From Tropicimonas isoalkanivorans (lineage in GTDB: Bacteria; Pseudomonadota; Alphaproteobacteria; Rhodobacterales; Rhodobacteraceae), in NCBI RefSeq assembly GCF_900112335.1, contig NZ_FOLG01000005.1:124001-188000 (forward strand): a stretch of DNA of 64,000 nucleotides, given 5' to 3'. Under the pieces are notes generated by a model. It made no database searches, had not been told where the DNA came from, and saw nothing but the letters and a program-made list of their open reading frames with translations. Made by a program: the position numbers and the translations under genes. This document shows, one piece after another, positions 12,587-12,996 of the stretch. Numbering within the stretch: the first letter of the stretch is position 1; every line of letters starts with the position of its first letter.

Positions 12587-12601
12587 GTTCCGTATATGTT
12601 C
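12587..12601 (+). promoter_or_regulatory. LexA (SOS) box, GTTC-N7-GTTC
   Basis: GTTCCGTATATGTTC is an exact match to the alphaproteobacterial LexA operator GTTCN7GTTC. It overlaps a plausible promoter: TGGACA at 12569-12574 and TATATG at 12593-12598, 18 bp apart. The predicted start is at or next to the ATG at 12604, so the transcript may be leaderless. LexA binding would directly block this promoter. Confidence 0.75.
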
Positions 12602-12603
12602 TT

Positions 12604-12996
12604 ATGCACACCCCAACTGCCCCCCTTCCCCCACCCGGCCGCTGGCCTCGCCCGCCCGCTGCCATCCCCGCCGCCGAGCTTGACCAGCCGCCGGATGGCG
12701 CGCGCGTCACCGTGGCCGGTCTGGTGCTGGTGCGCCAACGCCCCGGCACCGCAAAGGGCGTGATCTTCCTTACGCTGGAGGACGAGACGGGAACCTGCAA
12801 CGTCGTGGTCTGGGCGAAGCTCTACGAACGCTACCGGCGGGCGGTAATCGCGGGGCGGCTGCTGCGCGTCACCGGGCGCCTGCAGCGCGAACAATCGGTG
12901 GTGCATGTGGTTGCGGAGCACATCGAGGATATCTCCCCCATGCTGGATACCCTGCTCCACCCGGACTTCGATCCACTGGCGCCTGTGGCCCGCTAA
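12604..12996 (+). CDS. Orphan OB-fold protein resembling the C-terminal domain of error-prone polymerase DnaE2 (ImuC)
   Basis: A 130-residue protein. A Pro-rich opening leads into an OB-fold: [35 protein letters not shown], then [19 protein letters not shown]. This matches what I remember of the last 110 residues of DnaE2/ImuC, while the polymerase, PHP and finger domains are absent. The reading frame is clean and the fold motifs intact, so it is either a recent remnant or a domain kept under selection. The SOS box ends two bases before the start ATG. No imuA or imuB is in the window. A general OB-fold nucleic-acid-binding protein is the alternative. Confidence 0.75.

Follow-up and report, generated by a model that had tools for sequence, protein, structure and literature searches.

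The window, by which we mean the whole stretch of 64,000 nucleotides of Tropicimonas isoalkanivorans DNA analyzed here, carries on its forward strand a gene for a protein of 130 residues (12604..12996), which we annotated as a stand-alone OB subunit gene of the error-prone polymerase DnaE2. The frame opens with an ATG at 12604, runs for 130 codons and closes with a stop codon at 12994-12996. Residues 35-110 (12706..12933, + strand), the OB domain proper, matched the OB family PF01336 (E = 7.9e-15). When compared to NF004225, a model of the error-prone polymerase with 1047 positions, the protein aligned to C-terminal positions 943-1040 only (E = 5.4e-34, 117 bits), which agrees with an earlier sequence-only reading that had aligned it to the last ~110 residues of DnaE2 and nothing else.

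That reading had also seen preserved fold motifs. An AlphaFold2 model based on 48 aligned sequences was rich in strands and had a mean pLDDT of 91.9, and its Foldseek matches were general OB folds (Asp/Asn-tRNA synthetases, RPA and STN1) that do not inform on function. Judged by predicted fold alone, the protein is a nucleic-acid OB protein; its kinship to DnaE2 comes from sequence. Near the N-terminus it carries a WPRPP arm (residues 14-18; 12643..12657, + strand), a motif kept among stand-alone OB proteins: one of the W/Y-P-x-P-P type was present in 66 of 70 of them, compared to 0 of 43 linkers of fused DnaE2. The C-terminal motif SRDF[H/R], given for ~77% of DnaE2 in the parts of Timinskas et al. 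(PMC3919608) that we cite, was found neither in the window's OB protein nor in the tail of the polymerase body encoded by the same genome. Using the Nei-Gojobori method, dN/dS was 0.09-0.14 between the window gene and three close relatives and 0.09-0.22 when the four were compared pairwise (six pairs), values that are approximate, with dS being high. The earlier suggestion that selection has kept the frame is thus supported.

Divergent from the OB gene lies a 2Fe-2S ferredoxin gene (12157..12480, - strand; PF00111), which serves as a marker of the place of the OB gene and is no part of the polymerase. Across 9313-17738 of the window, eight genes neighboring the OB gene have matches at 54-92% identity in Tropicimonas sediminicola (L145), which makes the window Tropicimonas-like.

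A LexA-box-like site at a conserved position

An exact GTTC-N7-GTTC, GTTCCGTATATGTTC, lies at 12587-12601 on the + strand, two bases ahead of the ATG at 12604, just as the sequence-only reading had it. The pattern occurs twice in the window compared to 1.96 occurrences expected, and 142 times in the whole genome compared to 89 for the reversed pattern. Because the count in the window is at chance level, the argument for this box rests on its conserved place. From the 213 genomes with a match among the 248 surveyed (see below), we took the 30 best-scoring relatives, and in 29 of these (all except L011) there is an exact box with the next start codon 1-33 nt downstream; the same 99.8 kb contain only two other exact boxes, counting both strands. 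In a second set, an exact box precedes the OB start in 37 of 40 named loci (L161, L180 and L183 being without). This set derives from the 43 of 80 named loci listed as not lying in a long frame, after omission of three at contig ends (L185, L188 and L224), and it overlaps the first set in at least one genome (L028 is the same as L147).

Across the 66 boxes the consensus is GTTCTATATTTGTTC, and the distance from box to start codon is 2 nt in 36 cases and 1 nt in 12. A conserved [CT]T[GT]G begins 19 nt before the box, with a 17-nt spacer to TATATT. At the same place, 19 to 14 nt before the box, the window has a predicted -35-like CTGGAC (12568..12573, + strand) and a -10 element weaker than the consensus, either CGTATA or TATATG two bases further. 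From these positions we infer a promoter of the sigma-70 type for the OB gene, with the predicted -10 spanned by the box and a transcript that would be leaderless.

Three other exact boxes in the window's genome precede short frames. Those at L070:901-915 (contig C12) and L072:773-787 (contig C24), GTTCCCGTTATGTTC and GTTCCTGTTATGTTC, are each followed after 35 nt by the start of one of two similar 97-residue proteins, which are candidate SOS genes. The third, at L074:881-895 (contig C28), stands 11 nt before a 161-residue frame that we take to be reminiscent of the MmcB-like DNA repair family.

The polymerase body and its partners lie on other contigs

The sequence-only reading took the remainder of the polymerase and its ImuA/ImuB partners to be absent, which is true of the window at most. 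On contig C31 of the same genome (23795-26710) we found an OB-less DnaE2 body of 985 residues that matches NF004225 at positions 5-942 with 1228 bits (cut-off 939), the locus itself matching 3-943 with 1229 bits, and has no match beyond, so that body (5-942) and OB protein (943-1040) are complementary matches to one profile. Its polymerase, finger and HhH domains (PF07733, PF17657 and PF14579) scored above their cut-offs, and PHP (PF02811) scored below, with 20.8 of 26.4 bits. The body retains PLPLF, described as a clamp motif in the parts of PMC3919608 cited here. Bodies stop just past a linker of the form HPxxLLR; in the window's genome the C-terminus is 30 residues from the beginning of HPLALLR, and the OB domain is encoded by a separate gene on another contig rather than in the body chain.

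An imuB gene with two Y-family domains above cut-off lies on contig C38, and an ImuA-like gene lies on contig C28, the latter a weaker assignment (NF033429, 34 bits, E = 2e-8, under the cut-off of 150). The OB gene, the body, imuB and the ImuA-like gene are thus on four different contigs, each with a LexA-box-like site, and no two of imuA, imuB and body were adjacent in the contig stretches read. The boxes of imuA and imuB are exact and stand 16 and 26 nt ahead of the start, respectively. In the body the site, GAACAAAACAAGAAT, deviates at one position and lies 154 nt upstream of the chosen start, farther than in other bodies. A GTTC-N7-GTTC with at most one mismatch, in either orientation and within 300 bases upstream, was present in all 21 bodies read (exact in 5), compared to a chance expectation of ~0.2 per body by a rough hand estimate assuming equal bases. 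A single such site would carry little weight, but the body boxes are convincing as predicted sites because GAACAAAA-N2-TGAAT recurs among them and is placed near the start.

Co-occurrence of the two halves across the family

The survey covered 248 genomes from 247 genera of the family; each was scored by the end of its profile match and the length of the open frame, and doubtful ones were read individually. For 105 genomes outside the first listing of bodies, 80 were searched again, and 4 of the remaining 25 were scored as body-bearing by inference. Among the 215 genomes of good quality (that is, ≥90% complete and ≤5% contaminated), 93 had both a body and a stand-alone OB gene, 4 a body alone, 3 an OB gene alone and 115 neither; fused DnaE2 or fragments of it were present in 95 of these 115, and none was found in 20. 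The corresponding numbers for all 248 genomes were 102, 6, 4 and 136. The association among the 215 genomes (Fisher P = 1e-51) is a measure of tightness rather than of independent events, since the genomes share ancestry.

The good-quality exceptions were G044, G064, G162 and G180, in which a body was found without an OB gene, and G051, G061 and G237, in which an OB gene was found without a body. G051 is rated 100% complete, and G237 carries a fused DnaE2 besides its OB gene. A search for the ferredoxin marker at E = 1e-25 gave nothing in G044, G162 and G180, so assembly gaps are possible there. Unless such gaps explain them, these genomes indicate that neither half strictly requires the other. 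One good-quality genome, G035, has the split pair plus a fused copy.

Several candidates were rejected on closer reading. The apparent stand-alone OB of G009 belongs to a fused gene that runs across contig ends. In G178 the frame is likewise part of a fused gene, cut off by the end of a contig, and a weak match in G211 is left over from a fused gene rather than from the small one. G009 also has, at a contig end, a frame of 1524 residues (L238:514-5085) that takes in the DnaE2 polymerase along with a piece of ImuB and may reflect read-through between the two or their fusion. In G002, which has two fused DnaE2 and in which no split body was found, an OB copy beside the ferredoxin gene covers profile positions 75-120 and has no box (L243); judging from this truncation it is a remnant of the stand-alone gene, one case of decay.

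Searches beyond the family

Outside the family, 178 of 385 alphaproteobacterial genomes had a match, and all but 8 of the matches listed were in frames of ≥600 residues. Short-frame matches in G317, G429, G474, G534, G537 and G627 all lay <700 bases from a contig start, and G306 and G545, considered as split cases, were rejected because on reading they look like broken fused genes. There was no clean second split among the matches listed from these 385 genomes. The best 25 of 831 matching plasmid records were either annotated as error-prone DNA polymerase at the match or unannotated.

In our searches of an open-access library, supplements aside, we recognized no report of a separately encoded DnaE2 OB domain. 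Timinskas et al. describe several DnaE2 that have no OB domain, and the main-text parts cited here make no mention of a separate OB gene (PMC3919608). For Dinoroseobacter shibae, one study predicts LexA sites, and the word dnaE is absent from its main text (PMC6473078); another mentions an imuA-imuB-dnaE2 cassette on a plasmid of this species (PMC9426580).

A probable single origin and a possible intermediate

To place the split, we built a FastTree phylogeny of the polymerase core from the 51 body and 65 fused loci fetched. All 51 bodies formed one clade (support 1.0), with none of the 65 fused DnaE2 inside it. Genome G194 was the first branch of this clade, support for the other 50 bodies was 0.998 and the next clade up had 0.72. 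A tree of 94 of the 116 loci (without 3 bodies and 19 fused) agreed, with 0.91 for the next clade up. In a tree of the OB domain (71 stand-alone and 46 fused), the stand-alone proteins were grouped at only 0.67, and G194 fell with L157 rather than first. Our best reading is that dnaE2 was probably split once, in an ancestor of a large group within this family (Rhodobacteraceae and roseobacters by the named records).

G194, the deepest branch of the polymerase-core tree, has its body at L082:5626-8856 and, 1.2 kb downstream, an OB gene of 185 codons whose product ends in SRDFH (L082:9812-10369). Between them is an opposite-strand gene with a weak match to the arginine-deiminase family. Body and OB gene each have an exact box, and all of this lies within about 5 kb; from its sequence, G194 looks like a state soon after fission, an intermediate. 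In one model of the sequence-only reading, an internal deletion had joined the SOS promoter of an imuA-imuB-dnaE2 cassette to the 3' end of dnaE2. As a picture of how the gene could have been born this is fair, given the OB gene of G194 with its SRDFH and its own box, but no local deletion is involved, and the complementary pair occurs in 93 of the 215 good genomes.

The arrangement seen in the window, with the ferredoxin gene ahead of the OB gene and divergent from it, recurs in 38 of 40 named loci (exceptions L154 and L183). In G194 the ferredoxin gene is on a different contig with no OB gene nearby. A single relocation of the OB gene to its place beside the ferredoxin thus seems probable. 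Among 25 genomes compared, OB gene and body were ≤5 kb apart only in G194, and imuB and body were ≤5 kb apart in 3 of 43. A few body tails (L099, L101 and L126) contain HPRN or HPRD; these may be vestiges of the former tail and, if so, would be consistent with a duplication followed by complementary loss.

Discussion

The two models offered by the sequence-only reading were a deletion derivative and a new stand-alone SOS protein, neither of which is a split polymerase with its halves kept together. Our preferred explanation, which we consider likely, is that dnaE2 underwent one ancient fission and that its OB half, induced separately in the SOS response, now acts in trans together with the polymerase. 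The comparisons above show the fission itself and the conservation of both halves; SOS induction and reassembly are what we infer from them. In DnaE polymerases the OB domain comes after the HhH and clamp-binding part, where the template strand passes. Because the cut falls at the HhH/OB border and the clamp motif stayed on the body, reassembly in trans would be the simplest function. Upon DNA damage, LexA repression would be relieved and a leaderless mRNA of the OB gene made from the promoter whose predicted -10 the box covers. Its product would then dock at the HhH terminus of the body, perhaps via the WPRPP arm, and restore the grip on the single-strand template that ordinary DnaE2 has, possibly along with contact to ImuA/ImuB. 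The result would be a translesion mutasome completed from separately induced parts.

More tentatively, the OB protein could be a dissociable control subunit, such that the body alone is weak and translesion synthesis is gated by the level of an OB protein docking through WPRPP; it may then have ImuB as a further partner or serve other polymerases as well. We give this possibility perhaps one chance among a few. If it were true, fission would have placed mutagenesis under a second LexA checkpoint with a timing of its own.

A separate role acquired by the OB protein after fission, for example as a small single-strand-DNA-binding SOS protein, with the shortened DnaE2 working alone, seems to us unlikely. 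OB folds often bind single strands, RPA and STN1 are among the Foldseek matches, and the three OB-only and four body-only genomes would fit such a role. However, of the 96 good genomes bearing an OB gene, 93 also have an OB-less body, the protein is nearer to DnaE2 than to the SSB family (PF00436, 17.6 bits, under the cut-off of 26), and 95 of the 115 good genomes in which no OB-less body was found carry DnaE2 in fused or fragmentary form.

That the gene is a dnaE2 remnant, decaying or without function, is very improbable. The gene is a fragment by origin, and G002 has a true remnant at the same site, yet the OB gene was scored present in 106 of 248 genomes with dN/dS of 0.09-0.22 among those compared, both its box and its WPxPP motif are conserved, and the missing polymerase part is elsewhere in the genome; these same figures count against the decaying duplicate that the sequence-only reading had envisaged. 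Least credible of all is that the halves are joined post-translationally by a split intein, since, despite two unlinked polymerase genes being the arrangement of cyanobacterial DnaE (PMC3919608, as far as cited), only about 13-92 variable residues separate linker and stop in the bodies, the OB N-termini have no common intein-sized extension and no Pfam intein domain was present in either the OB protein of the window or the corresponding body.

In about a hundred genera, a whole domain of a DNA polymerase seems to have a gene of its own, separate from that of the enzyme. The 393-bp gene, separable from the catalytic protein, would offer a naturally removable OB domain, and the DnaE2 of roseobacter-type genomes can be misread as truncated.

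Among known systems, the OB-less DnaE2 described in the cited parts of Timinskas et al. (PMC3919608) have the OB-less body in common with the present case, to which an OB gene is added here. Cyanobacterial split DnaE, joined by a split intein, is likewise a polymerase in two unlinked genes, whereas here no intein parts were seen and the cut is at a domain border. In mycobacteria, the polymerase gene dnaE2 is whole. The mutasome genes there, imuA'-imuB and dnaE2, are separate too and are damage-induced, but what is split is the operon (PMC10421592, as far as cited). With ordinary DnaE2 and its ImuA/ImuB partners, finally, the present system shares the sequence family of both body and OB domain, ImuB and an ImuA-like protein, and LexA-box-like sites; it differs from the ordinary cassette in that two unlinked genes would encode one polymerase and the cassette is dispersed.
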